Source: Chryseobacterium sp. JJR-5R
GTDB lineage: Bacteria; Bacteroidota; Bacteroidia; Flavobacteriales; Weeksellaceae
Length of the DNA: 64,000 nucleotides
NCBI RefSeq assembly: GCF_034047335.1
Contig: NZ_CP139137.1
Span: forward strand, 744,001-808,000
Direction: 5' to 3'
Shown here: piece by piece, positions 39,284-63,462 of the stretch
How positions within the stretch are numbered: position 1 is the stretch's first letter
Layout of the letters: each line of letters begins with the position of its first letter
The notes under the pieces: model-generated
Databases searched by the model: none
Told to the model about the DNA's origin: nothing
Seen by the model: only the letters and a program-made list of their open reading frames with translations
Program-made: the position numbers and the translations under genes

Positions 39284-40068
39284 TATATCCTGAAAAATTT
39301 CCGGGCTGTCTCTGTGGTTTCATGAGCCACTTCAGAAAGGCTGATTTTCTTTATATGGGCAATGGTCTGTGCCACATAGGGCAGAAATGCAGGTTCATTT
39401 CTGCGGTGCTGCATCCGCGGCATATTTTTCGGCAGCATAAACGGTGCATCGGTCTCAACCATCATACGGTCAAGCGGGACATAACGGATCACTTCTTCCA
39501 GATGGCCGAACCGGTTCTGATCGCTTATCGCTCCCGTGAATCCTAGGTAAAAACCTTTATCCAGATAGATTTTCGCTTCATTCAGCGTTCCGGTAAAGCA
39601 GTGGACCACCGCTTCCGGCATTTTGGAACGGTAATCGTCCGTGATATCGTTAAACCTCCTGAAAGCAGATCTTTCATGCAGGAAAAGCGGTTTGTTGACT
39701 TCAATGGACAGTTCAAGCTGGGCACGGTAGCACGTTTCCTGAACGGGCCTTGGCGAAAAATCCCGGTCAAAATCCAGTCCGCATTCCCCTACGGAAACCA
39801 CATGGTTCTGTTCCAGCAAGGTTCTGAGCTCCTGAATGCCCTGTTGGGTAAAAGACTTCGCGTCATGAGGGTGGATGCCTGCCGTGGAATATAAAATTTC
39901 AGGATAGTCTTCTGCAATCCCTGCAGATTCCCTGCTTCCGCGTACGCTTGTGCCGGTAAGGATCATCTGTTCCACACCGTGATCCAGGGCACGGTTGATT
40001 ATTTCTTCATGTTCGTTGTGAAACTGTTTATGGGTTAAATTGATGCCGATATTAATCAGTGTATTCAT
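39283..40068 (-). CDS. tatD: TatD-family metal-dependent hydrolase (DNase)
   Basis: 261 residues. Amidohydrolase-fold nuclease: GECGLDFDRDFSPRPVQ, FLHERSAFRRF, VVHCFTGTLNEA and ETDAPFMLP carry the metal ligands. The usual first His pair of TatD (DxHxH) is replaced by NIGINLTHKQF, so one metal site may be altered. Overlaps the 105-aa gene upstream by four bases (ATGA), which places it at the end of the tRNA/protein mosaic transcript. Confidence 0.88.
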   Translation of the reverse strand: MNTLINIGINLTHKQFHNEHEEIINRALDHGVEQMILTGTSVRGSRESAGIAEDYPEILYSTAGIHPHDAKSFTQQGIQELRTLLEQNHVVSVGECGLDFDRDFSPRPVQETCYRAQLELSIEVNKPLFLHERSAFRRFNDITDDYRSKMPEAVVHCFTGTLNEAKIYLDKGFYLGFTGAISDQNRFGHLEEVIRYVPLDRMMVETDAPFMLPKNMPRMQHRRNEPAFLPYVAQTIAHIKKISLSEVAHETTETARKFFRI

Positions 40069-40382
40069 TTTTTTGATGTTTTGTTAATTAAAAAATATCT
40101 TGTTACATGCGCACGGTTTACAGCGCTTTTAAATGATTTTTCAGAATAAAAACTTCTGTAGCCGGAATCTGTTCTTCCGTTAATTTGTGTTGTGATTTTA
40201 GCCCGGATCAATTTCCGTCTTTTTTTCCTCTGCTTAAAAAACCTGACGGTTTCACGGAGCTGGTCTTCTATTTCAGACTTTTCCGTTCTTCTCCATTTCT
40301 TATTGCCGTATTTTTTCAGATAGGGTGGGATCTTCCCCCATTCATAACTTCTGAAAGTCCCTTTATTATATACGTTTTTCAT
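40065..40382 (-). CDS. Small basic protein upstream of tatD
   Basis: 105 residues, strongly basic (FKQRKKRRKLIRAKIT, RTEKSEIEDQLRE), no membrane segment. The charge suggests RNA binding, which would suit its place 20 bases downstream of a tRNA-like gene. No family recognised. Its stop overlaps the tatD start. Confidence 0.55.
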   Translation of the reverse strand: MKNVYNKGTFRSYEWGKIPPYLKKYGNKKWRRTEKSEIEDQLRETVRFFKQRKKRRKLIRAKITTQINGRTDSGYRSFYSEKSFKSAVNRAHVTRYFLINKTSKK

Positions 40383-40401
40383 AATAACATAAATTTAAAA
40401 A

Positions 40402-40470
40402 AGAAACAGGCAGGATTCGAACCTGCAACTTTCCTGTGCGTGGAATGTTTTTCCGTTAAACTACTGTTTC
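40402..40470 (-). tRNA. tRNA-like gene, Cys-type (GCA)
   Basis: 69 nt. Acceptor GAAACAG/CTGTTTC is perfect, D-stem GTTT/AAAC, T-arm GCAGG-TTCGAAT-CCTGC canonical. The anticodon loop ACGCACA gives GCA at 34-36 and the discriminator is U, the Cys identity base. Odd features: position 33 is C instead of the near-universal U, and the top pair of the anticodon stem is A-A. It lies between two protein genes of the same strand. Confidence 0.7.
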
Positions 40471-40475
40471 TTTTA

Positions 40476-42395
40476 TTAGGTTTCAGCTTCCAGAAGGCTG
40501 AAATATTCCGTAGCGGTTAACGGCCTTATGTTCCCTTCAGGACTCACCTCTTTTTTTAATTCACAGATGAGCAGGTCTCCCTGCCTTTTCAGGCATCTGA
40601 TATGCGGAATAATATTTTCATGAATTCTGAAGGTTGATGCAACAGCCGTTAAAGCATTGTCTTTATACTGGGGTTCTATCCAGAGCCAGTGTTCATTTCC
40701 CGTGGACGCGCACCGGCATTTCACGGCGTACGAATGTTTATCTCTTCTCCAGGAATACAGGCCGAGTTTACTGTTTTCAACGGCATATACTTCATAGTGG
40801 TTTATCTTTTTTACGGAAGATTCATTTCCGTTCCTGTCATACTGAAAATAATTTACCGGAATTTGCGCTTCATTTATTTTTACGGCCCCGAACTTTTTCA
40901 TTAAAGTTCCTACGCCCACATATCTGAAACAGAAAAGCCTGAATTCACGGTCATAAGAATCAAAAAACGCTTCAGGCTTTATCGGCTCCGTTCTATCCCA
41001 GAGTTTTTCAATTTTATTTAAAATTTTCAGGAAATGAGATGAGCTGTAATTCGTCCATTCCCGTTCATACTCCCGGGTGACAAAATGCTGAAAGCTGCTG
41101 TGCCTCAGTTTAAGAATGGAAACCAGCTTCTGCAGCGAATGGATATAATACCCCGGGACATTATATTCTAATGATGACCCTGAAATGATACATTCGTCTT
41201 TTGTGATATAAACACGGTCTCTCACCTTAAAATAAATCTTGTTAGCAAGACCTTCATAATCCTCATTTTCATCATATAGATAATGGTTTACTTCTTTCAG
41301 TGACGGGAATTCTGATCCTTTCTGCCGGTCTGATGTAAGATAATTGATGTACTCCAGTGATCTGAAATTTACGGTGCCGTTAAACATAAGCCTCTGGTTA
41401 ATTCTTTTCAGATGGTCAAATTCACAGTATTTATGCATGATAAGCGTTCCCGCTTCAACCAGATTTTTTGCAATTACCTGATCCGTATTGAAATTTCCGG
41501 TTATTTTCTCAAGCATTTCTAGGTAACAGGTTTCCGAACCGTGGTTCTGAAGGTTGCCGTGAATTTCATTAAGCATAGGAAAAGCAGCAGCACTGTTGCG
41601 GTTGATCATAATGGTTCCGGTTTTTTCCAGTACCGGGAAATTGATATAGGAGCCGTTTTCAAAATGAACTTTTCCGGTGGTTTCCTGAAGCTGCGGAAAA
41701 GATGCTTTCGTATTTTCAAACCTGAGGTTTCCCATAATTTTTTTTAGCACAGGGAAATAATGGGTGAATTCATGCGCTGATTTCTCACGGTTTTCCATGA
41801 CAAGTGCGCCATGAATGAATTCCAGATTCGGAAAAGAAATATGCTTACCGAAAATAGTAACCGCTCCGAGAATTTCACGATGAGGAAAAACCAGGTCATT
41901 GCCAAAAATATCAATATTGAAAATACCGTCTTCAGGCAGAATATCAATTTCATACTGATGATTAACAGGAATAACGATTCTTCCCTTTTTTAATTTCTTA
42001 CCCCTTGCATAAACAGCCGAATTTTTAAGGTTGATACTTCCTCCGACAGTCATTAAATGCGGGAAGGCGAAATCGATAATACATTTGATATTCCCTTTTA
42101 CTTTCTCCAGCCGGTCCAGTACTGCAGGGCAATGCAGCGTAAAATTTCCCTCTACCGTTTTAAGCACGGGAAATGAACAGCCCGGTGCATCCACAGACAG
42201 GTTTCCCTTTACTTTGACAAGGTTCGGAAAACGGCAGCCTTCACCGCGCAGCAGCAGGTTACCGTTGACTTCCGTGAAATCAAAAACCATGTCCTTCGCA
42301 TAGATTTCTAAGGATGAATATTCATCTGCATTGATTTCCTGAGCCTCTTTATCGGAAAAGATTTTACGGTTTTTTATCGCTTTAGTCGTAGGCAT
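40476..42395 (-). CDS. Repeat protein, leucine-rich/beta-solenoid type
   Basis: 639 residues. Residues 40-360 consist of about 15 irregular 20-residue repeats of the form FPxLxxVxGNLxxx (FPNLVKVKGNLSVDA, FPVLKTVEGNFTLH, FPQLQETTGKVHFEN), resembling receptor-L or beta-solenoid LRR folds. The C-terminal 250 residues are different and unrecognised (FRYVGVGTLMKKFGAVKIN, WRRDKHSYAVKCRCAS). No signal peptide, so cytoplasmic. Overlaps the 142-aa gene by 14 bases and is followed by the Cys-type tRNA. Could scaffold RNA or protein; unknown. Confidence 0.65.
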   Translation of the reverse strand: MPTTKAIKNRKIFSDKEAQEINADEYSSLEIYAKDMVFDFTEVNGNLLLRGEGCRFPNLVKVKGNLSVDAPGCSFPVLKTVEGNFTLHCPAVLDRLEKVKGNIKCIIDFAFPHLMTVGGSINLKNSAVYARGKKLKKGRIVIPVNHQYEIDILPEDGIFNIDIFGNDLVFPHREILGAVTIFGKHISFPNLEFIHGALVMENREKSAHEFTHYFPVLKKIMGNLRFENTKASFPQLQETTGKVHFENGSYINFPVLEKTGTIMINRNSAAAFPMLNEIHGNLQNHGSETCYLEMLEKITGNFNTDQVIAKNLVEAGTLIMHKYCEFDHLKRINQRLMFNGTVNFRSLEYINYLTSDRQKGSEFPSLKEVNHYLYDENEDYEGLANKIYFKVRDRVYITKDECIISGSSLEYNVPGYYIHSLQKLVSILKLRHSSFQHFVTREYEREWTNYSSSHFLKILNKIEKLWDRTEPIKPEAFFDSYDREFRLFCFRYVGVGTLMKKFGAVKINEAQIPVNYFQYDRNGNESSVKKINHYEVYAVENSKLGLYSWRRDKHSYAVKCRCASTGNEHWLWIEPQYKDNALTAVASTFRIHENIIPHIRCLKRQGDLLICELKKEVSPEGNIRPLTATEYFSLLEAET

Positions 42396-42810
42396 TTTCG
42401 TTGAGTTGGGTTATCGGGTTATATTCCTGCTGGATATACTTTACAAAATATCCTTTCTCTATACAGAGGATGTCATGTTCATGATGGATGATAAAAGCAT
42501 CTTCAGGAATATAAAATACTTCCGTACGGTCATTTTTTCCGGATATTTTATAATTCCGGGCTTTCAGGATGTGCTGGTTCCCGGTCTTTTCCAGGCAGTA
42601 CTCTTTATAATTTTCGGTATGGTCATCAATATTTTTGATCCTGTTTTTATTTCTCACAGCCCTTCTCTGAACCGGCGGTATAATTTCCGGTTTTTTCTGA
42701 GCTGCCACCTGAAATTTTTTTTCAGCCACGGGCCATTCTTTCCGCTGCACCGGAACAGGCGTCCGGACTTCTTCAATAATTCTGAAAAAAATCAATAATT
42801 TCTTAAGCAT
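42382..42810 (-). CDS. Unknown basic protein in the tRNA/protein mosaic
   Basis: 142 residues from the ATG at 42810 (MLKKLLIFFRIIEEV). A TTG start further upstream would lie inside the tRNA-like gene and is rejected. The N-terminal half is basic and Pro/Gln-rich (PVQRRAVRNKNRIKNIDD). The C-terminal half is a small beta-domain (TEVFYIPEDAFIIHHEHDIL). No homology recognised. Overlaps the 639-aa gene. Confidence 0.5.
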   Translation of the reverse strand: MLKKLLIFFRIIEEVRTPVPVQRKEWPVAEKKFQVAAQKKPEIIPPVQRRAVRNKNRIKNIDDHTENYKEYCLEKTGNQHILKARNYKISGKNDRTEVFYIPEDAFIIHHEHDILCIEKGYFVKYIQQEYNPITQLNENAYD

Positions 42811-42833
42811 GATATTCTGTTTTTTAATAAAGC

Positions 42834-42904
42834 ACAAAAAGGCCGGGATTGAACCGGCAACCTGTCCGGTAAGGACATATTTTTCCGGATTAAACTACAA
42901 CTTG
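42834..42904 (-). tRNA. Degenerate tRNA-like gene, Val-type (TAC)
   Basis: Good T-arm GCCGG-TTCAATC-CCGGC and D-region GTTTAATCCGG. The anticodon stem TGTC/GACA holds loop CTTACCG (anticodon TAC, U33 present). The acceptor CAAGTTG/CTTTTTG has two T-T mismatches, but pairing continues outside it (AAAGCA with TGCTTT, out to 42829-42910), giving an unusually long terminal helix. Either a decayed tRNA or a tRNA mimic. Confidence 0.55.
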
Positions 42905-42916
42905 TGCTTTTATCTG

Positions 42917-42989
42917 GGAGTACAGCAGGAATCGAACCTGCATCTCTGATCAGTAAGATCAGTGTCCTTCCGTTCAGAACGATGTACTC
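42917..42989 (-). tRNA. tRNA-Val (TAC)
   Basis: Acceptor GAGTACA/TGTACTC (extendable by one G-C pair), D-stem GTTC/GGAC, anticodon arm CTGAT-CTTACTG-ATCAG, T-arm GCAGG-TTCGATT-CCTGC. All helices pair; U33 present. The discriminator C and a following CA are encoded. Confidence 0.8.
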
Positions 42990-42992
42990 CTT

Positions 42993-43064
42993 AGAAACGT
43001 ACGGGACTCGAACCCGCAGCCCCTGACTTGGCAGGTCAGTGCTCTTCCATTGAGCTACCGTTTC
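42993..43064 (-). tRNA. tRNA-Gly (GCC)
   Basis: Acceptor GAAACGG/ACGTTTC (last pair G-A mismatched), D-arm GCTCAATGGAAGAGC, anticodon arm CTGAC-CTGCCAA-GTCAG, T-arm GCGGG-TTCGAGT-CCCGT, discriminator U as in bacterial Gly tRNAs. Only three bases separate it from the Val gene. Confidence 0.85.
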
Positions 43065-43072
43065 AGTTTTTG

Positions 43073-43145
43073 GGAAGCGTGCAGGACTCGAACCTGCGGC
43101 CTCCGCCGTGACAGGGCGGCATTCTTCCTGCTGAACTAACGCTTC
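43073..43145 (-). tRNA. tRNA-Asp (GTC)
   Basis: Acceptor GAAGCGT/ACGCTTC perfect, D-stem GTTC/GAAT, anticodon arm CCGCC-CTGTCAC-GGCGG, T-arm GCAGG-TTCGAGT-CCTGC. The discriminator is C rather than the usual G of Asp tRNAs. It begins eight bases after the stop of the SDR gene, so it must be cut from a protein-coding transcript. Confidence 0.85.
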
Positions 43146-43152
43146 TCTGTTT

Positions 43153-44517
43153 TTACCAGGTATGAACTTTATAATTTTTCAGTAAAACACCGCTGAAATA
43201 ATTCCCTTTAATCCCTTCCGCAACCGGATGCAGGATTCTTGCTGCACCGTCTACAGAATCCAGCGGCGGGATATATCCCTGCTCAAACTGTTTTCTTCTT
43301 AAGCTTTCCGTGGCTCCCGTGGAAATCCATCCAACGTCTACGGCACTCATGTAGATACGGTCTTTTTCAAATTCTTTTGCCGAAGTAAGCGTCATCATAT
43401 TCAGGGCGGCCTTGGTCATATTGGTATGCGGATGGAAAGCCGTTTTGTTCTCGTAACTGAAAATTCCTTCCGAAGAAGTAATATTGATAATGAATTTTTC
43501 TTTAAAAGATGAGTTTTTCATCAGTGGCTTTAGTTCCTTGATCAGGAAATAAGGCGCGATATGATTAATCAGGTTTACCTCCACCAGCTCATACAGGGAA
43601 ATCTCTTCCATTGTAGAATTCCAGCTCGTTTTATCCCGGTGGTCTACAGGCTGTCCGAAACGGGTAAGTGCAATATCGGTCTCTTCATTCCGGGCATATT
43701 CCAGTTTTCCGATTTCGGTTGAAACGGCCGTGGCATTCGGAAACAGTTTTTTATGGTTTTTATATTCCGCCAGCATTTCATTTTCACGCCTGATGACAGA
43801 AAGGTAATATTCGTCCGGATATTTAATGGTTTGTGCCGCATTATTGATCAGGATGTCCAGCGTATCGAAATTTGAGGCATAAAAATCTGTGAATTCCTGA
43901 ACTGCCTTTAAATTCCTGAGGTCCAAACCATAGATCCAGAGCCTGTCTTTCCACTTGTTATAATCGGCTTCCTGCTGCAGTGTTTCGAGAGCCAGGGCCG
44001 GAAACCGGGTCGTTAAAACCAGGTTGGCATTGCTTCTCAGCAGTTTCAGGGCTGTTGCCAGTCCAACCTTTACACGCCCTCCCGTCAGGACCACGTTCCG
44101 TCCCGAAAGATCTGCCGATAAAAAACGCCTTTCATAATTTTCTCCAGCACATGTCGGGCACATCCTGGTATAGAAAGAATGGGCATGCCTGTAGCTTTGG
44201 TTACAGCAGTAGCAGTTCTTTGGAATCTGCAGCCGGGTAAGCTGGGTTTCGTCTTTATGATCGTCATAAAAAATAGAAACTCCTGCAAGGGCTTTCTTCA
44301 TCAGAAATGATTCAGCACTGACTTCAAGGTCGTGTGATTTCATTTGCCAGTAGCCTTCCTGGCGGTTCTGCTTTCTGGCGTTTTTATGGATCTTGGTGAT
44401 CAGCCCAGAAAAAACAAGGTTGTCAGGATTGGTGAACGGCTCATCTTTCAGGGCATTTAAAACCTTGAGACATGATTCCCATTCATTTTGCGTAAAGTGT
44501 TGATGAAAAAAATCCAT
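43153..44517 (-). CDS. Zinc-ribbon SDR-family protein lacking the catalytic Tyr
   Basis: 454 residues. An N-terminal helical part (1-95) precedes a zinc ribbon with Cys102, Cys105, Cys120 and Cys123. A Rossmann fold follows: LTGGRVKVGLATALKLL (NAD(P)-binding, residues 144-160) and INNAAQT (225-230). The usual Ser-Tyr-Lys site is represented by TSSEG and HTNMTKAALN: Ser and Lys are kept but Thr365 stands where Tyr should be. An 80-residue insertion separates the two halves. The protein may bind NAD(P) without acting as a standard reductase. It has its own promoter and is followed at once by four tRNA genes. Confidence 0.78.
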   Translation of the reverse strand: MDFFHQHFTQNEWESCLKVLNALKDEPFTNPDNLVFSGLITKIHKNARKQNRQEGYWQMKSHDLEVSAESFLMKKALAGVSIFYDDHKDETQLTRLQIPKNCYCCNQSYRHAHSFYTRMCPTCAGENYERRFLSADLSGRNVVLTGGRVKVGLATALKLLRSNANLVLTTRFPALALETLQQEADYNKWKDRLWIYGLDLRNLKAVQEFTDFYASNFDTLDILINNAAQTIKYPDEYYLSVIRRENEMLAEYKNHKKLFPNATAVSTEIGKLEYARNEETDIALTRFGQPVDHRDKTSWNSTMEEISLYELVEVNLINHIAPYFLIKELKPLMKNSSFKEKFIINITSSEGIFSYENKTAFHPHTNMTKAALNMMTLTSAKEFEKDRIYMSAVDVGWISTGATESLRRKQFEQGYIPPLDSVDGAARILHPVAEGIKGNYFSGVLLKNYKVHTW

Positions 44518-44537
44518 TGCTTTTTATTTTACAATGG

Positions 44538-44545
44538 CAAAATTA
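44538..44545 (-). promoter_or_regulatory. Putative -7 element of the SDR-tRNA transcript
   Basis: Minus-strand TAATTTTG, 20 bases before the SDR ATG. It makes the SDR, four tRNAs, two proteins and the Cys-type tRNA a likely single transcription unit. No terminator is seen between 44517 and tatD. Confidence 0.55.
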
Positions 44546-44692
44546 TCTGTGCAGTGCGCAATGTTTTTACGTACCTGTGAAAAATGTTATGAAAGCCTGA
44601 ATTTATAGCTCTTGTGATGTTTTTAAAAAAATAAGTCAGATTAATACGCCGACAGACCAGGTTAAATACTTTTTCTGCGATGATCCGGATCA

Positions 44693-45343
44693 TTAATCGT
44701 TAATAAAAACTTCCAGAAATCCGATCAGCTGTTCTCCGCCGTGGCTCCAACGGATCCCGTGCCCGCCTTCTTCCCTGATTTCGAAAACCAATCCGTGCTT
44801 ATAATGAAAAAAGACGTTCCACCATGTGGTGTGGTCTAAAATAAAATGAATTTTCTCCATCACGCTCTGCTGCTTTTGCCGGTTGTTTCCTTTTATGTCT
44901 CCCCAGAACCGGTCATCCGTTCTGCCGGCATGTTTTTCCCAGGCCCGCTGTGCCATGGTCACTTCTTGGTTAAAAGGTTTTTCACACGCTTCAATCAGCA
45001 CAGTCCGCAGTGGCGGAACGGCATTTTCATTCCGGATGCTGGCTGAGGTAAGCCGCTGTCCCAGGATATTCAGCCAATGCTCAAAAGGGATTTTCTCCAT
45101 CTGCTGTGCCTTATGTTCATCCGTATTCCGGCTTTCAAGAATATTAATAAAAATGCGGAAACTTCCCGCACGGTCGGGTTTTATTTCTTCATGAAAGAAA
45201 GGCAGGTCCCATTCTAAGGTTCCGGTTTTAAATTTCCGGATGTTGTTATCTGAATTTTCCAGATGCTCCTCAGCTAAAACAGCCTGGTATTTTTCTTTCC
45301 AGGTTTCTGAAAACAACGGAATATATTTCTTTAGTGAATCCAT
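44693..45343 (-). CDS. Unrecognised 216-aa protein
   Basis: 216 residues, mostly helical, with conserved-looking aromatic/charged patches (SETWKEKYQAVLAEEHLEN, EKHAGRTDDRFWGDIKG, LDHTTWWNVFFHYKHG). No signal peptide, membrane helix or known catalytic motif. Two bases downstream of the DUF434-like gene, hence probably one operon with it. Confidence 0.55.
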   Translation of the reverse strand: MDSLKKYIPLFSETWKEKYQAVLAEEHLENSDNNIRKFKTGTLEWDLPFFHEEIKPDRAGSFRIFINILESRNTDEHKAQQMEKIPFEHWLNILGQRLTSASIRNENAVPPLRTVLIEACEKPFNQEVTMAQRAWEKHAGRTDDRFWGDIKGNNRQKQQSVMEKIHFILDHTTWWNVFFHYKHGLVFEIREEGGHGIRWSHGGEQLIGFLEVFIND

Positions 45344-45345
45344 GA

Positions 45346-46056
45346 TTAAACCATTTTCACCAAGTTAACGGGAAGCTTTTCTTCTTCCATCAAGTATCCG
45401 GCAAGGTTAAACCAGTTCCGGCAATGGTCCAGAATCCAGCCATCTGAAGAGACGGCAATTTCTGCGTGTTCAGCAAGGAATCTGTCCGGATTAAATTCCA
45501 GTTCAGTTTCCCAGTTCAGATGATTTTCAAAAGAAAAATCCAGGACCATCTGTCTGATCCTGCCGCTGTTGGAAACAGGTTTGTCAAAAATCCAGATTAA
45601 TTTCCGGGCTCCGGACTTTTGAAAAAATGCCGCAACAAGTTCGATTGATTTTAAAGTCTGGTTCACTTTTCTGTAGGTCCCGTGAACGCCGGAAAGATCC
45701 CGTAAACAGCCGTCCGCACCCCGGAAAATATAAGCTCCGGAAAGCAGGCTTTCCAGGAGGATGATGATATTAAAGCCGTCCAGATGTACCGTTGCATCCT
45801 GTAATGCGGAAATCTGAAGTGCTTTGTCTGCCCTGTTCCGGATCTGGATTTCTGAGGCAGAAGCAGCACGGACGGCCTGAATCTGGCGGGCTTTAAGGCG
45901 GTAGCGGTTTCCGGTCAGTTCCGAAGAAGCCCTTTCAGCATAGCCTCTGCTTAACAGGTAGTGCATATCCTGAACTGCCATTTTCAGTTTTCCGGTCTGC
46001 TTTTCTGAACCGAAAAGCAGGTCGTCATCCGTGTTTTTTCCGCGGTTTTTTTGCAT
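45346..46056 (-). CDS. DUF434/DUF5616-type protein, possible PIN-like nuclease
   Basis: 236 residues from the ATG at 46056 (MQKNRGKN). The N-terminal part matches what I know of DUF434: AVQDMHYLLSRGYAERASSE and LTGNRYRLKARQIQAVRAAS. The C-terminal part has LDGFNIIILLESLLSG, LIWIFDKPVSNSGR and EIAVSSDGWIL, whose spaced acidic residues (Asp in LDGFN, IFDKP, SSDG) resemble a PIN/NYN RNase site. Nuclease activity is inference. Divergent from the MoxR-vWA operon across 155 bases. Confidence 0.65.
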   Translation of the reverse strand: MQKNRGKNTDDDLLFGSEKQTGKLKMAVQDMHYLLSRGYAERASSELTGNRYRLKARQIQAVRAASASEIQIRNRADKALQISALQDATVHLDGFNIIILLESLLSGAYIFRGADGCLRDLSGVHGTYRKVNQTLKSIELVAAFFQKSGARKLIWIFDKPVSNSGRIRQMVLDFSFENHLNWETELEFNPDRFLAEHAEIAVSSDGWILDHCRNWFNLAGYLMEEEKLPVNLVKMV

Positions 46057-46059
46057 GCC

Positions 46060-46067
46060 CAAATGTA
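46060..46067 (-). promoter_or_regulatory. Putative -7 element of the DUF434-like gene
   Basis: Minus-strand TACATTTG, three bases before the ATG at 46056; transcription would begin close to the start codon, giving a nearly leaderless message. Confidence 0.5.
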
Positions 46068-46210: not shown

Positions 46211-46840
46211 ATGTTGGAAAACCGATCCCCGTTTTTAGATACGTTGTTTCTGCTCCGCAAGGAAGGAAGCATGGCCATCTATACAGACCTTCAGGAAATC
46301 TCTGCAAAGGAAGAGGCAGATGCCGCAGATTATTTTGCCTCTGAGTTTGAAAACGAACGGCTGGAATTCCTGTCGGATCAGGTCAGTTTCCATAAAGAAT
46401 CCGCAGTCTGGGCAGCAAAGGTGCTGTATCACAGTGCACAGCTGTACCTGGTGAGAAAAGATACGTCCGGCAGCCTCGGGAAGTTAATTCCTGGTTTCGC
46501 AGGGGAAAGAAATGTTTCTTCAATCCTGTCGGCAGATTTGTCATTAAGGTTTTTGCCGCAGATAATAGCAGTCCTGCACGATGCCGACCCTGAAGATCCA
46601 TTGGTGGGAATGCTGGAAAATATTCTGGTAAATTTTCATTATTCTGCGATCGGATATGACTTGAACCTGGGAAAAATAAACTGGCAAGAAGAATTAAGCA
46701 ATGCAACCTACCGGAAATTATACCTTGAAAGGATTGTAGACAAAAAAGACTACAGGCTGGCAGAAATCCCATACATCAATCATCTGCTGATGGCGGAATT
46801 CGGGCTGCATAAAGATGAGTTCTGGAAAGAATTAAAATAA
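46211..46840 (+). CDS. First gene of the MoxR-vWA-propeller operon, bpX-type helical protein
   Basis: 209 residues, helical, acidic, without signal or membrane segment. It fits in size and position the accessory 'bpX' proteins described for MoxR-vWA-beta-propeller ternary systems; which bpX family is uncertain (bpX4 would be my guess). Segments: SVSFHKESAVWAAKVLYHSA-like helix, AVLHDADPEDPLVGMLENIL. It stands alone upstream with its own promoter and is 15 bases from the next gene. Confidence 0.55.
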   Translation: MLENRSPFLDTLFLLRKEGSMAIYTDLQEISAKEEADAADYFASEFENERLEFLSDQVSFHKESAVWAAKVLYHSAQLYLVRKDTSGSLGKLIPGFAGERNVSSILSADLSLRFLPQIIAVLHDADPEDPLVGMLENILVNFHYSAIGYDLNLGKINWQEELSNATYRKLYLERIVDKKDYRLAEIPYINHLLMAEFGLHKDEFWKELK

Positions 46841-46855
46841 GTAACACACAGAAGA

Positions 46856-55311: not shown

Positions 55312-55315
55312 CAAA

Positions 55316-55577: not shown

Positions 55578-55582
55578 CAAAA

Positions 55583-55655: not shown

Positions 55656-55695
55656 CAGTAATTAAGTTAATTGTTTCAAAAGAGAAAAAGGAAAG

Positions 55696-55987: not shown

Positions 55988-55999
55988 TCAAAGTAACTC

Positions 56000-56329: not shown

Positions 56330-56403
56330 ACCGCTGATAATGTAACGGCAGCATGCAGGAAATGTACTCTTGTTGTTCAGGTTCGATTCCTGGTCAGTCG
56401 GTC
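56330..56403 (+). tRNA. Degenerate tRNA-like gene, anticodon uncertain
   Basis: Acceptor ACCG-CTGA pairs with TCAG-T-CGGT with one bulge. T-arm TCAGG-TTCGATT-CCTGG is good, D-stem only three pairs (ATG/CAT). Anticodon stem CAGGA/TCTTG holds loop AATGTAC, which would give TGT (Thr) but lacks U33. Begins three bases after the encoded CCA of the previous element. Confidence 0.5.
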
Positions 56404-56407
56404 AATT

Positions 56408-56480
56408 GCTCTATTCGTCTAACGGTTCAGGACGCCTGCCTTTCGAGCAGAAAATAAGGGTTCGATTCCCTTATAGAGTA
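56408..56480 (+). tRNA. tRNA-Glu (TTC), copy 2
   Basis: Acceptor GCTCTAT/ATAGAGT, D-arm GTCTAACGGTTCAGGAC, anticodon arm CTGC-CTTTCGA-GCAG (outer pair C-A mismatched), T-arm AAGGG-TTCGATT-CCCTT, discriminator A. Compensating changes relative to copy 1 in the acceptor (CCAT/ATGG to CTAT/ATAG) indicate selection for structure. Confidence 0.88.
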
Positions 56481-56524
56481 CAATTTAGTATTAAGTAAAA
56501 GAAATCAGACAGGTTTCAAAACAT

Positions 56525-56598
56525 GCGGGAATGGCGGAACTGGCAGACGCACCTGATTTAGGATCAGGGTATTAAGGGTTCGAATCCCTTTTCCCGTA
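56525..56598 (+). tRNA. tRNA-Leu-like (TAG) without a long variable arm
   Basis: Acceptor GCGGGAA/TTCCCGT, Leu-style D-arm GCGGAACTGGCAGACGC, anticodon arm CCTGA-TTTAGGA-TCAGG (TAG), T-arm AAGGG-TTCGAAT-CCCTT, discriminator A. Bacterial Leu tRNAs are class II with a variable arm of over ten bases; here only GTATT (five) separates the anticodon and T stems. Otherwise perfectly paired. May not be a normal LeuRS substrate. Confidence 0.85.
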
Positions 56599-56755
56599 CA
56601 GAAGATGAATAATGGGCATGTGCAATGGGTAACAACCCCAAAAGCAACAGCTCACAACTCAAGTAATTGGTGGTTAGAAATAGCCGCACATAAAAATAAC
56701 GGATCAATGATCATTTATGAATGATAAAAAGTATAAAACTTAACATGTAGAAAAA

Positions 56756-57241
56756 ATGGAAACGCAACAACAAAAATGGCAGAACATGAACGGAAAAATT
56801 TTCCGCGATCCTATCACACAGCTGGTAGAAGAAGCCATCCTCCGAGAACAGGCCAACGGGCACCGGCTGAAAGTGTGTGTGGGATCAGATTCCCATGTAT
56901 ATGGTGACGCTATTAATTATGCTACGGCAGTCGTAATCATCCGCGAGGGAAAAGGAGCGTTTACCTTTATCAGGAAAGAAAGGGAATTCCGGCGGATCAG
57001 TATCAAGGAACGGATGCTGAATGAAGTCAACAAATCCGTAGAGATTGCTTACGCCATCTGTGCTGTCCTGGAAACGTATGATGTGGAAATGGAGGTACAC
57101 GCAGACATTAACACCGATCCGGATTTTAAATCCAATGTCGCTTTGAAAGATGCCATGGGCTACATTCTGGGAATGGGATATGTATTTAAAGCTAAACCCT
57201 ACGCATTCGCAAGTTCCAATTGTGCTGATATGATGGTGTGA
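56756..57241 (+). CDS. YkuK/DUF458-like RNase H-fold protein
   Basis: 161 residues. The YkuK family has an RNase H-like fold: KVCVGSDSHVYGDAINYATA supplies the first Asp, YDVEMEVHADINTDPDFKSN further acidic residues, and the helix ALKDAMGYILGMGYVFKAKP follows. Binding or cleavage of RNA/DNA hybrids or tRNA is likely from the fold but unproven. First protein gene after the tRNA array; the 150-base gap between holds nothing recognisable. Confidence 0.78.
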   Translation: METQQQKWQNMNGKIFRDPITQLVEEAILREQANGHRLKVCVGSDSHVYGDAINYATAVVIIREGKGAFTFIRKEREFRRISIKERMLNEVNKSVEIAYAICAVLETYDVEMEVHADINTDPDFKSNVALKDAMGYILGMGYVFKAKPYAFASSNCADMMV

Positions 57242-57549: not shown

Positions 57550-58344
57550 ATGAAATATAACAGAATTGCCGTTATCGGCTTGCACGAAGAAGAATATCAA
57601 TATATACGGGAACATTTTGAAGGATTGATCATCTGGCATCAGTCGGTTCCGAAAATAAAAGTCTTGGACGGAATATTATACGTTGAAAAACCCCAGGGCG
57701 TAGGGATGCTGCCGGTAGATAAAGTAATTTATCACGGGATTTTTGAAAATGACCTGGATTTTATCTCCGGGCTGGCTTTATGGAACGGCCCGTGCTTCCC
57801 GAATGCATACGGCATGATGGAGTGCAGGCTTAAGATACCCTGCCTGGTGAAAGCCATGAAATTTTCTGAATTCAGTTCCCCGAGGGGATTTATTTCAGAA
57901 GGTGCTTATGTAAAAACAGATACGGAACACGTCGCCAAATGGGGGAACTGGCATTGCGGTGAAAATAAGCATAAGTTTTCCGGAAGCTGGGAAAGCACGG
58001 AGGATGCGGTGCTGGAGCCCTATTTTGAAGGCGAAGCCGTGAGGATTTTACACATCGGCGGAAAATCCTGGCAGATAAAGCTGGAAGGGGAGACCTGGTT
58101 AAAATCCATTCATCCTGCACAGGTACGGTTCATGGACATTGACGAAGGCCTTCTGAGGGATACGCTGAACCTGAAAGAACGGATCGGGATGGATCTCATT
58201 GCCAACGACTACATTGTCTGCGGAGACGGAACCAGGCATTTACTGGAGATAAACCATATCCCGAATATCACCAGGTTTGAAGAAATAAGACTCCACTTTC
58301 TGGATACCGTTGTCAGTTGGATCCATGAGGAGGAAGGAGGATGA
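57550..58344 (+). CDS. ATP-grasp-like ligase
   Basis: 264 residues. The C-terminal half has the ATP-grasp order: LEPYFEGEAVRILHIGG, WQIKLEGETWLKSIH (Lys in the nucleotide site) and YIVCGDGTRHLLEINHIPNI, whose Asp, Glu and Asn would bind Mg-ATP. The N-terminal part is a pre-ATP-grasp Rossmann-like domain (RIAVIGLHEEEYQYIREHF). It could ligate an amino acid or peptide to a protein or RNA partner; target unknown. Follows the remnant of another ATP-grasp gene. Confidence 0.72.
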   Translation: MKYNRIAVIGLHEEEYQYIREHFEGLIIWHQSVPKIKVLDGILYVEKPQGVGMLPVDKVIYHGIFENDLDFISGLALWNGPCFPNAYGMMECRLKIPCLVKAMKFSEFSSPRGFISEGAYVKTDTEHVAKWGNWHCGENKHKFSGSWESTEDAVLEPYFEGEAVRILHIGGKSWQIKLEGETWLKSIHPAQVRFMDIDEGLLRDTLNLKERIGMDLIANDYIVCGDGTRHLLEINHIPNITRFEEIRLHFLDTVVSWIHEEEGG

Positions 58345-58403: not shown

Positions 58404-58949
58404 ATGTTTTTATACGATAAAGTAATAGTAATAGATATTGAAGCCACCTGCTGGGCCAAAGGACAGGCGCCGGAAAATCAGAAAACAGAAATCATCGAGA
58501 TCGGCATCTGCAAGCTCAACATGGCAGACGGAAGCATCGAAGACAAGAGAAGCTACCTGATAAAGCCGGTGCAGTCTGAAGTCAGTGAATACTGTACACA
58601 GCTTACAGGGATCACGCCGGAAAAGCTGGAAAAAGAAGGGATGACTTTTAAAGAAGCATGTTTAAATATAAAAAACAGATATAGTTCCTTACAGATAACA
58701 TACGCCGGGTATGGAGGCTTTGATAAATTGATCATGGAAAGCCAGTGCAAAGAGCTGGATATTAAATTTCCTTTCAGTGAAACCTATCTTGATTTGAAAG
58801 TGATCATCAGCTTAATGAGCGGTAAGAAACCAATCGGGCTTTTAAAAGAACTGGAAACAAGGAATATAGACTTTGAAGGAAACAATCACAACGGTGCAGA
58901 TGATGCTTTTAACACAGCGAGATTACTGTATCATATTTTAAAGAAATAA
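58404..58949 (+). CDS. DEDDh 3'-5' exonuclease, ERI1/KapD-like, copy 1
   Basis: 181 residues. VIVIDIEATCWAKGQ (Asp, Glu), the middle motif with YGGFDKLIMESQCKELD (Asp) and the end motif HNGADDAFNTARLL (His, Asp) make a complete DEDDh active site. The DxEATCW signature is that of ERI1 and KapD exonucleases, which trim RNA 3' ends. Two more copies lie at 62272 and 62911. Five bases before the receiver-like gene. Confidence 0.88.
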   Translation: MFLYDKVIVIDIEATCWAKGQAPENQKTEIIEIGICKLNMADGSIEDKRSYLIKPVQSEVSEYCTQLTGITPEKLEKEGMTFKEACLNIKNRYSSLQITYAGYGGFDKLIMESQCKELDIKFPFSETYLDLKVIISLMSGKKPIGLLKELETRNIDFEGNNHNGADDAFNTARLLYHILKK

Positions 58950-58953: not shown

Positions 58954-59316
58954 ATGGAAAATACAAAAAGATTATTGTTTCTGGACGATATAAGATGCCC
59001 GCCTGATGTGTATCATTATACAAAACGGGATATTTTCTGCAGGGAAGACTGGCATATTGTCCGGGATTACACAGAGTTTGTCAGCAGGATTCTGGAAAAC
59101 GGGCTTCCGGAGATGATTTCTTTTGACCATGACCTTGGCGATACACAAGATATAAAGTCCGGTTCTCGGGAAGATGTTGAAAAAACAGGCTACGACTGTG
59201 CCAAATGGCTGGTTGAATATTGTATGGATCATGATACGGAACTGCCCGAATTCTATTGCCATTCTATGAATCCGGTGGGAAAGGAAAATATCGAAAAACC
59301 TGTTAAACAACTTTAA
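58954..59316 (+). CDS. Cyclic-phosphate-processing receiver-domain protein
   Basis: 120 residues, a compact receiver-like fold: LLFLDDIRCPP (Asp11, Asp12), ISFDHDLGD (Asp58, Asp60) and YCHSMNPVGKENI (His103, Asn106). These match the family proposed from comparative genomics to process 2',3'-cyclic phosphates in RNA repair. It lacks a usual phosphorelay output domain. Sits 21 bases before the RNA ligase, the expected pairing of end-healing and ligation. Confidence 0.85.
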   Translation: MENTKRLLFLDDIRCPPDVYHYTKRDIFCREDWHIVRDYTEFVSRILENGLPEMISFDHDLGDTQDIKSGSREDVEKTGYDCAKWLVEYCMDHDTELPEFYCHSMNPVGKENIEKPVKQL

Positions 59317-59337: not shown

Positions 59338-60351
59338 ATGATTTTCAAAACATATAACACAATAGAAAATGCGTACCAAGCCCGCGTGATCGATCAGATC
59401 AGGATGCAGGGCTTCGGGGATGAGGTTTTCATTGTGCAGGAAAAGGTTCACGGAGCCAATCTCTCTTTCTTTACCGACGGAAAGGAGATTAAGATGGCCA
59501 AAAGAACCGCTTTCATCGAAAAGGATGAGAAATTTTACAATGCATACCGGATTTTAGAACGTTACAGGAAAAATGTAATTCATATCTTCGAAAAGGTGAA
59601 AGCCGTTTATCCGGATATGGAAACGGTGGTTATTTATGGCGAACTGTTCGGTGGCGGCTATAAACATAAAGAAGTAGAGCCCGTAGAAGAGGCGGTAAAA
59701 GTGCAGAAAGGTGTTGAATATGCGCCGGACAACGAATTTTACGGATTCGATATCAAACTGAACGGCACCACTTATCTGGATACGGATTTAGTCAATCAGA
59801 TTTTTGAGGAAACCGGCTTTTTCTATGCAAAAACCCTTTTTCAGGGGACTTTGGAAGAGGCTTTGAAGTTCCCGAATGCTTTCGATTCTGAAATTCCCGC
59901 CTGGTTGGGCCTGCCTGAAATCGAAAATAACATGTGCGAAGGGACCATTGTCAAAACTTTGAAAACCAGGTATTTTGGAAACGGGGCACGGGTCATTCTG
60001 AAAAATAAAAATGAGAAATGGACTGAGAAATCAAAAATGGTTAAAAAAGACAGGCCTGCAAAAAAAGACATTCATTTCAGCGGAAAAGCTCAGGAGATCT
60101 GGGAGGAAATCCGGAACTATGCAACGGTAAACCGATTGAATAATGTTGTCAGCAAGACTGGTGAATTTGAGCCTGAAATGACAGGTAAAGTAATTGGCCT
60201 TTTTGCACAGGATATTCTGGAGGATTTTGAAAAAGATTTCCCGGGAGCTTTCGCAGCCATAGAAAAAGAGGAGCACAAAAGAATCAATAAAAAATTGAAT
60301 TCTTTGGTCATTGATCTGGTAAAACAGGAGCTGATGACGCTTAAAATTTAG
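59338..60351 (+). CDS. RNA ligase, T4 Rnl2 family
   Basis: 337 residues. Nucleotidyltransferase motifs: I, VQEKVHGAN with the AMP-accepting Lys36; III, VVIYGELFGGGY; IIIa, EFYGFDIKL; IV, MCEGTIVKTL; V, ARVILKNKNEKWTEK. An Rnl2-like helical C-terminal domain follows. It seals 3'-OH/5'-PO4 nicks in duplex RNA, such as cleaved tRNA anticodon loops. It lies in the middle of a set of RNA-processing enzymes. Confidence 0.93.
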   Translation: MIFKTYNTIENAYQARVIDQIRMQGFGDEVFIVQEKVHGANLSFFTDGKEIKMAKRTAFIEKDEKFYNAYRILERYRKNVIHIFEKVKAVYPDMETVVIYGELFGGGYKHKEVEPVEEAVKVQKGVEYAPDNEFYGFDIKLNGTTYLDTDLVNQIFEETGFFYAKTLFQGTLEEALKFPNAFDSEIPAWLGLPEIENNMCEGTIVKTLKTRYFGNGARVILKNKNEKWTEKSKMVKKDRPAKKDIHFSGKAQEIWEEIRNYATVNRLNNVVSKTGEFEPEMTGKVIGLFAQDILEDFEKDFPGAFAAIEKEEHKRINKKLNSLVIDLVKQELMTLKI

Positions 60352-60478: not shown

Positions 60479-61423
60479 ATGATACAGGCAGAAATAAAAA
60501 GTCTTTTAAGAGAAGACATCAGCATATTGATAAAAATCCCGAATTCCGGCAAGCATTATCTGTGCGATTGCGGGGAAGCAAGCCTGCTGACGGTGAAGGA
60601 AGTACAGTCGGTTTCCGCACTGTTCATCAGCCATACGCATATAGACCATTTTTCAAATTTCGACGGGATTTTCAGGCATCAGATCGGAAGCGGGGAAAAA
60701 ATCGTGATCTGCGGGCCGAAAAATATCCATAAACAGGTTGAGGCGAGGCTAAAATCCTATACCTGGAATTTAGTTGATGAAAAGGCCATTGAATATGAGA
60801 TCCGGGAAGTTGTTTCAGAAGCGGAAATCAATGTTTATAGGATTTGTCCGCCGTACTGGAACCTTGAATTGTCTGCCACGCAGAATTTCCTTTTTGAAGA
60901 TGAAAATGTAAGTGTTGATTGTGCAGTTCTTGACCATAAAACGGATTCAGTTGCGTATCTGTTCAGGGAAAAAGATTCGGTCACCTATAATGAAAACGCT
61001 TCCGGATTCAGGAAAGGAAAATGGATCAGTGAACTGAAGGCTGCTTTTGAAACTCAGGATCCGGAGAAAGCCATTGAAATTGAAGGCACGGTTTATAAAG
61101 CAACGGATTTATTTCATTTGCTGACCCGTAATGAAGGTTACAGGTTAGGTGTGATTATGGATCATGCCGTTTGTGAAAGCAATTATGAGAAAATAAAAAT
61201 CGTCTTTAGAAAAGCGGACCTGGTATATATCGAAACCTTTTATAAGGATGAAGACCGGGAATTGGCCGGACAGAATTATCACAGCTTTGCTTCAGCATCC
61301 GGAAAAATCATGAAGGACTGTGACGTAAAAGAGGCTGTTCCGATTCATTTTTCCAGGAGGTATACGGAAAATGACAGGCTCGAAATTGAAACTGCTTTTT
61401 ATAAAGCGTTTCGCAGCAGTTAA
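60479..61423 (+). CDS. MBL-fold, RNase Z-like metallohydrolase
   Basis: 314 residues. FISHTHIDHFSNF gives the HxHxDH metal motif (His52, His54, Asp56, His57). Further ligands probably are the Asp of VIMDHAVCE and the His of IHFSRRY. The FSxRY ending and overall length are typical of RNase Z/ElaC-like proteins, which cut tRNA 3' trailers. In this setting it could mature the array tRNAs, which lack encoded CCA. Activity not proven. Confidence 0.8.
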   Translation: MIQAEIKSLLREDISILIKIPNSGKHYLCDCGEASLLTVKEVQSVSALFISHTHIDHFSNFDGIFRHQIGSGEKIVICGPKNIHKQVEARLKSYTWNLVDEKAIEYEIREVVSEAEINVYRICPPYWNLELSATQNFLFEDENVSVDCAVLDHKTDSVAYLFREKDSVTYNENASGFRKGKWISELKAAFETQDPEKAIEIEGTVYKATDLFHLLTRNEGYRLGVIMDHAVCESNYEKIKIVFRKADLVYIETFYKDEDRELAGQNYHSFASASGKIMKDCDVKEAVPIHFSRRYTENDRLEIETAFYKAFRSS

Positions 61424-61628: not shown

Positions 61629-62192
61629 ATGAAACCCAATATATTTTTTACAGCAGACCATCATTTTGGTCATGAAAATATTATAAAGTTTTCCGAAAGG
61701 CCTTTTGAGTCTCCGGAACAGATGAATGAAGAGCTCATCAAAAGATGGAATGAGAAAATCGGAACCCATGATACCGTCTACCATTTAGGCGATATCAGTT
61801 TGGGCAAACCGGATTTCACCAGAGAAGTGCTGGACAGGCTGAACGGTGACATCCACCTGATCAAAGGCAACCATGAAGGGGCCGCCCTGACCTGTCCGAA
61901 AAGGTTTGCCTCCATAAGGGACTACCATGAACTTCGGGTTGACGAGCCGGAAAGCAGCAACGGCAGGCAGAAAATCATCCTGTTTCACTACGCCATGCGG
62001 ACCTGGAACGGCTCACACCGCGGAACGTGGCAGCTTTACGGCCATTCCCACGGAACTTTGCCGGATGATGAAATGGCTTTAAGCATGGATGTCGGTGTGG
62101 ATTGCCATAATTTTTATCCGGTTTCTTACGAAGAAATCAAAGAAATCATGAAGAAGAAAAAATGGGTGCCACCGTTTGCACCGAGAAATTAG
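61629..62192 (+). CDS. Calcineurin-like metallophosphoesterase
   Basis: 187 residues. Metal-site motifs: FFTADHHFGHENI (Asp10, His12), VYHLGDISLG (Asp55), IKGNHE (Asn81, His82), FHYAMRTW and YGHSHG. Compact phosphoesterases of this type hydrolyse cyclic phosphates or phosphomonoesters. Next to an RNA ligase, removal of 2'-phosphate or cyclic phosphate is a reasonable inference. The 200-base gap before it shows no gene. Confidence 0.87.
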   Translation: MKPNIFFTADHHFGHENIIKFSERPFESPEQMNEELIKRWNEKIGTHDTVYHLGDISLGKPDFTREVLDRLNGDIHLIKGNHEGAALTCPKRFASIRDYHELRVDEPESSNGRQKIILFHYAMRTWNGSHRGTWQLYGHSHGTLPDDEMALSMDVGVDCHNFYPVSYEEIKEIMKKKKWVPPFAPRN

Positions 62193-62271
62193 TATAAGTA
62201 ATAAATAATTGGTAATGATTGATTTTAAAATCATTGATCATCTGCCAATTATCATTTTTTTCAAATCAATT

Positions 62272-62817
62272 ATGAAAACAACTAACGAAATATTGGTCAT
62301 CGACCTGGAAGCCACATGCTGGGAATATGATAAAATTCCTGCCGGCCAGAAAACCGATATTATAGAAATAGGGATTTGCGAACTGAACAGGACAACCCGT
62401 GCCATTTCCAAAAAGCAGAGCATATATGTTATTCCCGAGCGGTCGAAAATCAGTACATTCTGTACTGACCTGACAGGAATTACGCCGCAGCTGGTAAAAG
62501 AAAAAGGAATCCGTTTTGAAGAAGCCTGTGAGAAAATCAGGGATGAATACAGCTCAGCTTCGCTGGCTTGGGCAGGCTTCGGAAGCTTTGATAAAGAACA
62601 GGTTTCGCAGCAATGCGATTACCTAGGCATTGAAAATCCTTTTTCCGGAAATTACATCAACATCATGCACCAGTTCAGAGCCTATAACGGGCTTTACAAA
62701 ATGATGGGACTCAAAAGAGCCCTCAAAGCCCTGAACATGGATTTTGAAGGGAACCATCACAGCGGAGCGGACGATGCTTACAATGCCGCCAGAATTCTAA
62801 GGGAAATAATCGGATAA
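62272..62817 (+). CDS. DEDDh 3'-5' exonuclease, ERI1/KapD-like, copy 2
   Basis: 181 residues from the ATG at 62272 (MKTTNEILVIDLEATCW); the upstream in-frame ATG would add a hydrophobic leader not shared with the paralogues. Complete DEDDh set: DLEATCW, AGFGSFDKEQVSQQC, HHSGADDAYNAARIL. Similar to the other two copies in length and order of motifs. Confidence 0.88.
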   Translation: MKTTNEILVIDLEATCWEYDKIPAGQKTDIIEIGICELNRTTRAISKKQSIYVIPERSKISTFCTDLTGITPQLVKEKGIRFEEACEKIRDEYSSASLAWAGFGSFDKEQVSQQCDYLGIENPFSGNYINIMHQFRAYNGLYKMMGLKRALKALNMDFEGNHHSGADDAYNAARILREIIG

Positions 62818-62910
62818 GGAAGATGATCGTACAGGTGATGGATGAGGGAAGTTTTTACAATATGTAATTAGCTTCCGGCGTCCAGCCTTTAATAACAAAT
62901 ATTTAAACAA

Positions 62911-63462
62911 ATGAAAACAACAGATAATATATTAATTATAGACCTCGAAGCCACGTGCTGGAAAGACCGGCCGCCGAGAGGACAGGAAAGTGAAATCATA
63001 GAAATCGGCGTATGTATCATGGATGCGCGTACCGGTAAGATTTCACAAAATGAAGGGATTTTAGTAAAACCTCAATACTCAAAAGTAAGCCCGTTCTGTA
63101 CGGAGCTCACTACCATTACCCAGCAGATGCTGGATGACGAAGGCATTTTACTGGAAGATGCTTTGGATATCCTCAGGGCAGAATACATTTCTGAAGACCT
63201 GACCTGGGCAAGTTACGGAAACTATGACCTGAATATGCTGCAGAACCAGGCAAGGAGATTCAGGGTTGATTATCCTTTGAGTGATGACCACATCAATGTG
63301 AAAACATTATTCGGGCAGACGCACCCGACCGTCCGCAAAAGTGTCGGCATGGCAAGAGCTTTAAGCGAACTGAACTTCAAACTTGACGGTATGCATCACA
63401 GAGGCGTGGATGACGCGAAGAATATTGCGAAGATTTTGCATTGGTGCATAAAACAACAGTAA
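62911..63462 (+). CDS. DEDDh 3'-5' exonuclease, ERI1/KapD-like, copy 3
   Basis: 183 residues. DLEATCWKDRPPRGQ, ASYGNYDLNMLQNQARRF and HHRGVDDAKNIAKIL carry the five catalytic residues. It opens with the same MKTTDNILIIDLEATCW as copy 2, pointing to local duplication. Last gene of the cluster; a terminator follows at 63499. Confidence 0.88.
   Translation: MKTTDNILIIDLEATCWKDRPPRGQESEIIEIGVCIMDARTGKISQNEGILVKPQYSKVSPFCTELTTITQQMLDDEGILLEDALDILRAEYISEDLTWASYGNYDLNMLQNQARRFRVDYPLSDDHINVKTLFGQTHPTVRKSVGMARALSELNFKLDGMHHRGVDDAKNIAKILHWCIKQQ

Follow-up and report, generated by a model that had tools for sequence, protein, structure and literature searches.

Tandem leader peptides of near-complete amino-acid composition precede a tRNA array and RNA-repair genes in Chryseobacterium

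The window analysed here is a stretch of 64,000 nucleotides from Chryseobacterium sp. JJR-5R (contig NZ_CP139137.1, positions 744,001 to 808,000 of the forward strand), whose closest named relatives belong to Chryseobacterium. A first-pass annotation had proposed a tRNA damage-response locus in the block at 40065-63462 of this window, where tRNA genes lie among RNA-repair genes and beside a MoxR-vWA-bpX operon. Between that operon and the main tRNA array, two short open reading frames (ORFs) were found, leader peptides A and B, each running into an intrinsic terminator. This control region provides the strongest evidence on the locus; its leaders and terminators, and a conserved element between the leaders (element C), were absent from the first-pass annotation.

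The control region and its leader peptides

The features of the control region are listed below by their coordinates in the window.

54470..54477, plus strand: promoter-like box TATCTTTG before leader A (consensus match only)
54491..54619, plus strand: leader peptide A, 42 amino acids, 19 amino-acid types
54580..54586, plus strand: antiterminator segment TGAGGCG in leader A (codons N-E-A), complementary to the 5' arm of terminator A
54650..54676, plus strand: intrinsic terminator A (hairpin and T run)
54787..54839, plus strand: conserved element C (GATGAGAGACAGTCATTT and a covarying hairpin), between the leaders
54928..54935, plus strand: promoter-like box TTACTTTG before leader B (loose pattern)
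55001..55132, plus strand: leader peptide B, 43 amino acids, 18 amino-acid types
55106..55113, plus strand: antiterminator segment AGGTGCTT in leader B (codons R-C-L), complementary to the 5' arm of terminator B
55157..55186, plus strand: intrinsic terminator B (hairpin and T run), immediately preceding the array

Related loci were compared in two samples. The larger one comprised the best 80 of 206 loci (1.6 Mb in total), which were retrieved through bpMoxR, the MoxR gene of the operon, and are thus biased towards it. The other comprised 20 loci anchored on YkuK, a gene behind the array; these were hand-picked from 141, for the most part among the lower entries of the list, and are free of the bpMoxR bias. 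Leader A was present in 106 and leader B in 104 of 117 segments, 11 segments having neither leader and two lacking B alone. The leaderless segments had no array in the fetched stretch, reached a contig end, or belonged to one genome (G133) in which the leader-B core was present when searched beyond the 2,600-base scan. As some loci were fetched twice among the 117 segments, distinct peptides are given below. Of 75 unique arrays, 71 have a TAnnTTTG box in the 60 nucleotides before leader A, and all 75 have a TAnTTTG- or TAnnTTTG-like box (a loose pattern) in the 140 nucleotides before leader B.

The amino-acid composition of these peptides was unusually broad. The 74 distinct A peptides averaged 19.5 amino-acid types and the 80 distinct B peptides 18.95, compared with 16.0 for 42-residue windows of the window's long ORFs. 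Although the peptides diverge across the genus, in 103 of the 104 segments no amino acid was missing from the A and B pair. ORFs of 36-48 amino acids running into such a hairpin were found 134 times in the 1.6 Mb (80 loci); 123 of them were these leaders, as recognised by motif, and the remaining 11 contained 13-18 amino-acid types.

The diversity was concentrated ahead of the antiterminators. This was counted only in leaders carrying the antiterminator motif, with background windows drawn from the 26 long ORFs of the window; the leader sequences are related and the counts are therefore not independent trials. The 29 codons before antiterminator A contained on average 19.1 amino-acid types (background 14.0), and all 20 were present there in 21 of 60 distinct segments versus 0 of 100,000 background windows. 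Leader B contained 17.7 types ahead of its antiterminator (background 14.7). The upstream parts of A and B jointly held all 20 in 80 of 104 segments, and the parts behind the antiterminators were not diverse. When the columns of leader A were shuffled, the share of sequences with all 20 fell from 0.54 to 0.34, and none of 500 shuffles reached the observed value.

The antiterminators are embedded in the coding sequence at a preferred position, AGGTGCTT at codon -9 in 81 of 104 B leaders and TGAGGCG at codon -13 in 84 of 106 A leaders. In leader B the codons AGG, TGC and TTA were fixed (79/79 each), and in leader A GAG (68/69) and GCG (62/69) were nearly so, whereas elsewhere in the leaders the same residues rarely used those codons (AGG 4/88, TGC 11/98, GAG 27/170, GCG 7/193). 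Synonymous codons were frozen at the antiterminators only. The antiterminator bases fall in a different frame in two of 83 distinct B ORFs, and the motif is missing from 7 of 78 A ORFs.

The pairing of these segments was also analysed. In the alignment of terminator B, 97.2% of the cells were paired and one pair covaried (G-C 48, A-U 10); double-change cells and covariation score exceeded all 500 shuffles. The U of leader B pairs with both the G and the A variant of terminator B, and the antiterminator B helix was 96.8% paired, versus at most 60.5% when slid. For leader A, the terminator finder picked a neighbouring hairpin in 13 of 106 cases. RNA folding prediction, with no ribosome in the model, gave the antiterminator in the nascent transcript and the terminator in the completed one. 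The arrangement is that of an attenuator: a short conserved ORF followed by a terminator, a competing antiterminator overlapping the leader and the putatively sensed codons upstream of it. The control region was also compared with Rfam, and a known element was rejected as a candidate, since none of the 27 matches up to E 10 reached its gathering score (best by E-value, Phe_leader, 0.24).

The leader-B core occurred exactly once in 127 of the 148 genus genomes and in none of the 7 genomes without YkuK, which is itself present in 141 of 148. The distance from this core to YkuK was 2.1-2.8 kb (by eye, in 5 of the 127 genomes).

Element C is perhaps another regulatory RNA. Its TGAGAGACAGTCATTT was invariant in 60 aligned sequences, and no Rfam match was obtained for it. 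All six YkuK-bearing genomes tested had the element. Of the 7 genomes without YkuK, 6 lacked it, as did three bpX genomes that have no array; the seventh genome without YkuK is 73% complete. Among 346 genomes of the order, 21 matched the strict element-C pattern, and these all belong to two genera, that of the window and that of the second family described below.

The tRNA array

The array behind terminator B contains the following genes and tRNA-like elements.

55238..55312, plus strand: tRNA-Arg(tct) (ARAGORN, Rfam)
55379..55499, plus strand: tRNA-Pro homologue, T-loop interrupted (intact homologues in relatives)
55505..55578, plus strand: tRNA-Glu(ttc) (ARAGORN, Rfam)
55583..55656, plus strand: tRNA-Met(cat), G1:U72, not initiator-like (ARAGORN, Rfam)
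55857..55989, plus strand: tRNA-Cys homologue, T-loop interrupted (intact homologues in relatives)
56193..56327, plus strand: tRNA-Tyr homologue, insert of about 49 nucleotides in the anticodon loop (intact homologues in relatives)
56331..56400, plus strand: Thr/Ile-like tRNA (RF00005, 31.3 bits)
56408..56481, plus strand: second tRNA-Glu(ttc) (ARAGORN, Rfam)
56525..56599, plus strand: tRNA-Leu(tag), short variable arm (ARAGORN, Rfam)

ARAGORN detected 11 tRNAs in the window, 10 of them inside the block, in agreement with the ten genes annotated at first. Rfam RF00005 recovered nine of the ten at gathering score in a whole-window scan and all ten when given 26 kb. The degenerate or enlarged tRNA-like elements reported together with them were found again as the interrupted Pro, Cys and Tyr genes and the Thr/Ile-like gene listed above.

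The whole genome gave 70 RF00005 matches, 10 of which are in the block. The stretches fetched from outside the window carried 32 anticodons, including every ARAGORN anticodon of the block: Arg tct (2 copies), Glu ttc (3), Met cat (4), Leu tag (1), Cys gca (1), Val tac (2), Gly gcc (1) and Asp gtc (3). Eight matches were left out of this check (4 further Ile/Ala pairs, with scores equal to one fetched pair). Since each block anticodon is duplicated elsewhere in the genome, it is ruled out that these are the sole housekeeping copies, the outcome that had been named as a refutation of the damage-response proposal.

Across the genus the array has a largely common isotype order: His, (Ile), Lys, Arg, Ser, Asp, Pro, Glu, Met, Asn, Cys, Tyr, Thr/Ile, Glu, Leu, Phe, Gln and Trp. 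It covers 17 amino acids genus-wide, with 12-15 in 48 of 75 unique arrays and 17 in one. Ala, Val and Gly tRNAs were found in the second cluster, near SDR and orf639.

Over 608 distinct array genes in 20 groups, 97.2% of the stem cells were paired (93.1% when shuffled). The pairing was beyond all 200 shuffles in 15 of the 20 groups and not above them in the His, Cys, Ser, Leu(taa) and Met groups; stem positions were set by a simple scheme, with pairs in His probably misplaced. Double changes were observed at 103 of 340 stem positions. In 18 of the 19 groups that could be compared, the commonest discriminator matched that of the housekeeping tRNA; among these are Asn, Asp, Ser and Trp (G), Cys (T) and His (C), and Thr is mixed. 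U33 was retained in 19 of 20 groups, and CCA was encoded in 64 of 857 array tRNAs. A short-armed Leu and a long-armed Cys depart from the usual form. As judged from their sequences, the array tRNAs lean towards replacement rather than mimicry of housekeeping tRNAs.

Two further elements were observed in the arrays. In 20 of 75 unique arrays an insert of about 55 nucleotides, in 21 copies overall, interrupts array tRNAs in the T-loop; Cys is the usual host, with Gln, Asp and Tyr as further ones. The 3' end of the insert is able to pair with the 3' strand of the host tRNA. As the core of the insert occurs once in the window's genome (tRNA-Cys, 55857-55989), it is not a genome-wide repeat. Additionally, hairpins whose long loop carries a GCGCAGAAG-like motif, together with a T run, were seen at 55690-55760, at 56050-56120 and in the gaps of other arrays; a pattern search found 1-5 such repeated hairpins between the genes of each array in 74 of 75.

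Repair genes, the MoxR operon and their linkage

The remaining genes of the block lie behind the array or upstream of the control region.

56756..57241, plus strand: YkuK (PF04308, RNase H-like fold; Pfam)
57550..58344, plus strand: protein of 264 amino acids, no Pfam or NCBIfam match
58404..58949, plus strand: DEDDh exonuclease 1 (RNase_T; Pfam)
58954..59316, plus strand: cREC (PF20274), cyclic-phosphate processing receiver domain (Pfam)
59338..60351, plus strand: Rnl2-type RNA ligase (TIGR02307, 209 bits, cut-off 197)
60479..61423, plus strand: RNase Z-like protein of metallo-beta-lactamase fold (NF002558, 219 bits, below the cut-off of 315)
61629..62192, plus strand: calcineurin-like phosphoesterase (PF12850; Pfam)
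62209..63462, plus strand: DEDDh exonucleases 2 (62209-62817) and 3 (62911-63462) (RNase_T)
46211..54354, plus strand: MoxR-vWA-bpX operon, a frequent but optional neighbour of the array
40401..46062, minus strand: second tRNA cluster (Cys, Val, Val, Gly, Asp) with DUF434, orf216, SDR, orf151 and orf639

Pfam and NCBIfam matches agreed with the initial labels for Rnl2 (an RNA ligase of a known repair family), cREC, the phosphoesterase, the three exonucleases, YkuK, the DUF434 protein (which also matches DUF5616) and MoxR-bpX. The RNase Z-like label has a match behind it, with the sub-threshold score given above, and the ATP-grasp label was not supported, as the only candidate for it is the 264-amino-acid protein at 57550-58344. 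Homologues of this protein were found near second-family arrays. PADLOC, run on 10 proteins, returned a DEDDh model for exonuclease 3 as its sole match. The operon comprises bpX4, DUF4919, bpMoxR, bpX2, a vWA-region protein with bpX0/bpX1, bpX3 and a TPR/SNAP-like protein; bpMoxR and the bpX0-bpX4 domain proteins are Pfam matches above cut-off, and the vWA domain itself had no match in the Pfam scan of the operon proteins. The second-cluster proteins orf639 and orf151 (40476-42837, minus strand) had no Pfam or NCBIfam match and accompany the second tRNA cluster in many relatives.

PF20030 matched in all 148 genus genomes because ordinary MoxR proteins match too, and only matches above 160 bits were counted as bpMoxR; these were found in 18 of 20 same-genus genomes. 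A tRNA array of 3-16 ARAGORN tRNAs lay between the bpMoxR operon and YkuK in all 17 of these that had enough contig, the window's genome and 16 relatives, so that the grouping seen at first pass is more than chance. In the YkuK-anchored sample, array tRNAs were present upstream of YkuK in 20 of 20 loci (a single tRNA in one), with the MoxR operon adjacent in 13 and no MoxR nearby in 7. An RNA ligase was absent or unrecognised in 10 of these 20 stretches. Among bpX loci of other genera with enough contig, five of six had no array, YkuK, cREC or Rnl2, and the sixth had array and YkuK. Across the phylum, 10 genomes out of 345 carry bpX2.

A leader A', element C, a leader B', terminators and 2-4 ARAGORN tRNAs recurred in four loci of a second family (f2, g34), whose genus is perhaps Flavobacterium. 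Two of these four leader-bearing loci had no MoxR in the fetched stretch. One of the loci (L241) carries, behind leaders and array, an RLIG1-like RNA ligase (30 bits, cut-off 25) and a Band_7/SPFH protein (coordinates 9417-9986 and 11546-12643).

The idea of one joint locus survives in part: the linkage of the array to RNA-repair genes is maintained within the genus and, with a different ligase, in one second-family locus. The MoxR operon was rejected as a core part, since arrays without MoxR and MoxR operons without an array both occur in the genera above, and the second family has leaders and tRNAs without MoxR as well as bpX loci without leaders. The MoxR-bpX operon is a frequent partner and not a required part. 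The control region, the array and YkuK look like the unit, with MoxR-bpX and the repair genes coming and going.

A possible response to shortage of any charged tRNA

Attenuators of the trp, his, thr and ilv type consist of a short ORF, an intrinsic terminator and an antiterminator overlapping the coding sequence, and their leaders are rich in one to three amino acids. The locus described here likewise combines a short ORF, a terminator, an overlapping antiterminator and downstream genes that could relieve the shortage. It differs from them in having 19-20 amino-acid types between the start and antiterminator A, in being tandem, and in preceding tRNA genes instead of biosynthesis genes.

The leaders are presumably translated. 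With all tRNAs charged, the ribosome would reach the leader stop codon and keep the antiterminator off the 5' arm of the terminator, which would then form. If one tRNA were depleted, whether by a tRNase, phage attack or starvation, the ribosome would stall upstream in the leader, the antiterminator would pair and RNA polymerase would read through. Read-through would supply divergent tRNAs predicted to be competent for decoding, which we infer to be chargeable, and would also give YkuK, the exonucleases, cREC, the RNA ligase, the RNase Z-like protein and the phosphoesterase; these enzymes may trim, heal and re-join damaged tRNAs. We assign a probability of about 0.65 to the proposal, drawn from sequence comparison, that the tandem leader attenuators switch on backup tRNAs, and likely the repair genes, when any charged tRNA runs short. 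The leaders suggest a broader trigger than the cut tRNAs proposed at first pass: any charged tRNA in short supply, for which cleavage may be one cause among others. The chances seem even that the locus is a universal tRNA-depletion alarm, with leaders evolved to hold every amino acid and a shadow decoding set and repair toolkit in response. This alarm would be a dedicated whole-pool tRNA damage response, in which a one-amino-acid gauge became a twenty-channel detector.

Several observations weigh against this proposal. In the control region, terminator B has a single covarying pair, a count reached by 437 of 500 shuffles, and the antiterminator helix showed no covariation (500 of 500 shuffles equalled the observed value). 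Column shuffling of leader B lowered the share with all 20 amino acids from 0.29 to 0.21, with 16 of 500 shuffles reaching the observed share, and ahead of its antiterminator this leader lacks Trp in about 91% and Thr in 63% of segments. The exact leader-B core was missed in 14 of 141 YkuK-bearing genomes, and a search for a leader-like ORF before the second (DUF434/SDR) tRNA cluster of the window found none. In the array, His has no encoded G-1, unlike its housekeeping counterpart, U33 is absent and N73 variable in the Thr/Ile group, U37 occurs in Asp and one Glu group, U8 is gone in Pro, Cys, Tyr and Ser, and the genome of the window itself carries several broken array genes. That the repair genes are co-transcribed with the array is assumed from order and strand. 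In the second family, the leader pairs cover 18-19 amino acids, with Trp missing in four of four and Thr in one, and two of four bpX loci (G430 and G474) show no leaders.

Other explanations were also weighed. The leaders might be a general gauge of starvation or translation speed, set off by a lack of amino acids or by ribosome-targeting antibiotics, and the extra tRNAs might tune the pool as in the Anabaena trn operon, with no link to tRNA damage. Starvation too would be reported by leaders containing all amino acids, some loci have no recognised RNA ligase, and the Anabaena operon is induced by translation-targeting antibiotics (PMC10272220). However, a pure speed gauge requires no coverage of 20 amino acids, and an RNA ligase, cREC and end-processing enzymes stand behind the array in many loci, making this explanation unlikely.

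Rather less credible is that the array RNAs are decoys cut instead of the housekeeping tRNAs, or that their cleavage is a signal, with the ligase and exonucleases recycling them. The odd tRNAs (His without encoded G-1, the short-armed Leu and the long-armed Cys), the four groups without U8 and the U37 of Asp and one Glu group would suit such a role, but the cognate synthetase rule holds for the discriminators of 18 of the 19 groups that could be compared, 19 of 20 groups retain U33, and the 17 amino acids, with codon boxes largely served by a single anticodon each, have the appearance of a decoding set.

A phage-derived or decaying tRNA cluster with no present use and unrelated neighbours, as the three interrupted genes of the window's genome, the isotypes patchy between species and the distant blastn matches of 600 bases of one array to phage tRNA genes might suggest, is highly improbable given the order, strand and place common across the genus, the compensatory stem changes and the leaders under selection, with codon freezing and covariation already straining it; no phage record covered 80% of the 600-base query (the best places 23%), on which evidence a recent phage origin is at present rejected.

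The proposed shortage response can be placed beside known systems of RNA repair. The rtcBA operon is reportedly regulated by damaged tRNAs, and Burroughs and Aravind are said to have described in 2016 RNA-repair systems with Band-7 modules and a tRNA-like RNA. The present locus resembles these in that an RNA ligase and end-processing enzymes adjoin tRNA-like genes, and in the Band_7/SPFH gene of one second-family locus. It differs in having many real tRNA genes rather than one tRNA-like RNA and in its predicted leader-peptide control; no RtcR or RtcB, as in rtcBA-type systems, was seen here.

The trn operon of Anabaena (PMC10272220) contains 26 extra tRNA genes on a megaplasmid, is repressed by the protein TrcR and was interpreted as a translational-stress response. 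A long tRNA array additional to a full housekeeping set is present in both cases, whereas the present array is chromosomal, has predicted attenuators and is followed by RNA-repair genes. The neighbouring operon fits the Pfam models of the MoxR-vWA beta-propeller (bpX) ternary systems (PMC7159879); section 22 of that work mentions no tRNA array, and here the association is frequent but optional. In literature titles and abstracts, no recognisable description of the locus or of an all-amino-acid leader was found, which is weak evidence of absence, subscription papers lying mostly outside.

If the proposal is true, these bacteria would possess a transcriptional sensor for the shortage of any tRNA that works without a sensor protein and is wired to replacement tRNAs and repair enzymes, and the clustering of RNA-repair genes with extra tRNAs in them would be explained. 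The control region might then serve as a reporter for tRNase attack, in phage defence or by contact-dependent toxins, and the existence of a spare decoding set in bacteria would become directly testable. It would also show that the signal sensed by an uncharacterised attenuator can be read from how its leaders are composed in related genomes.

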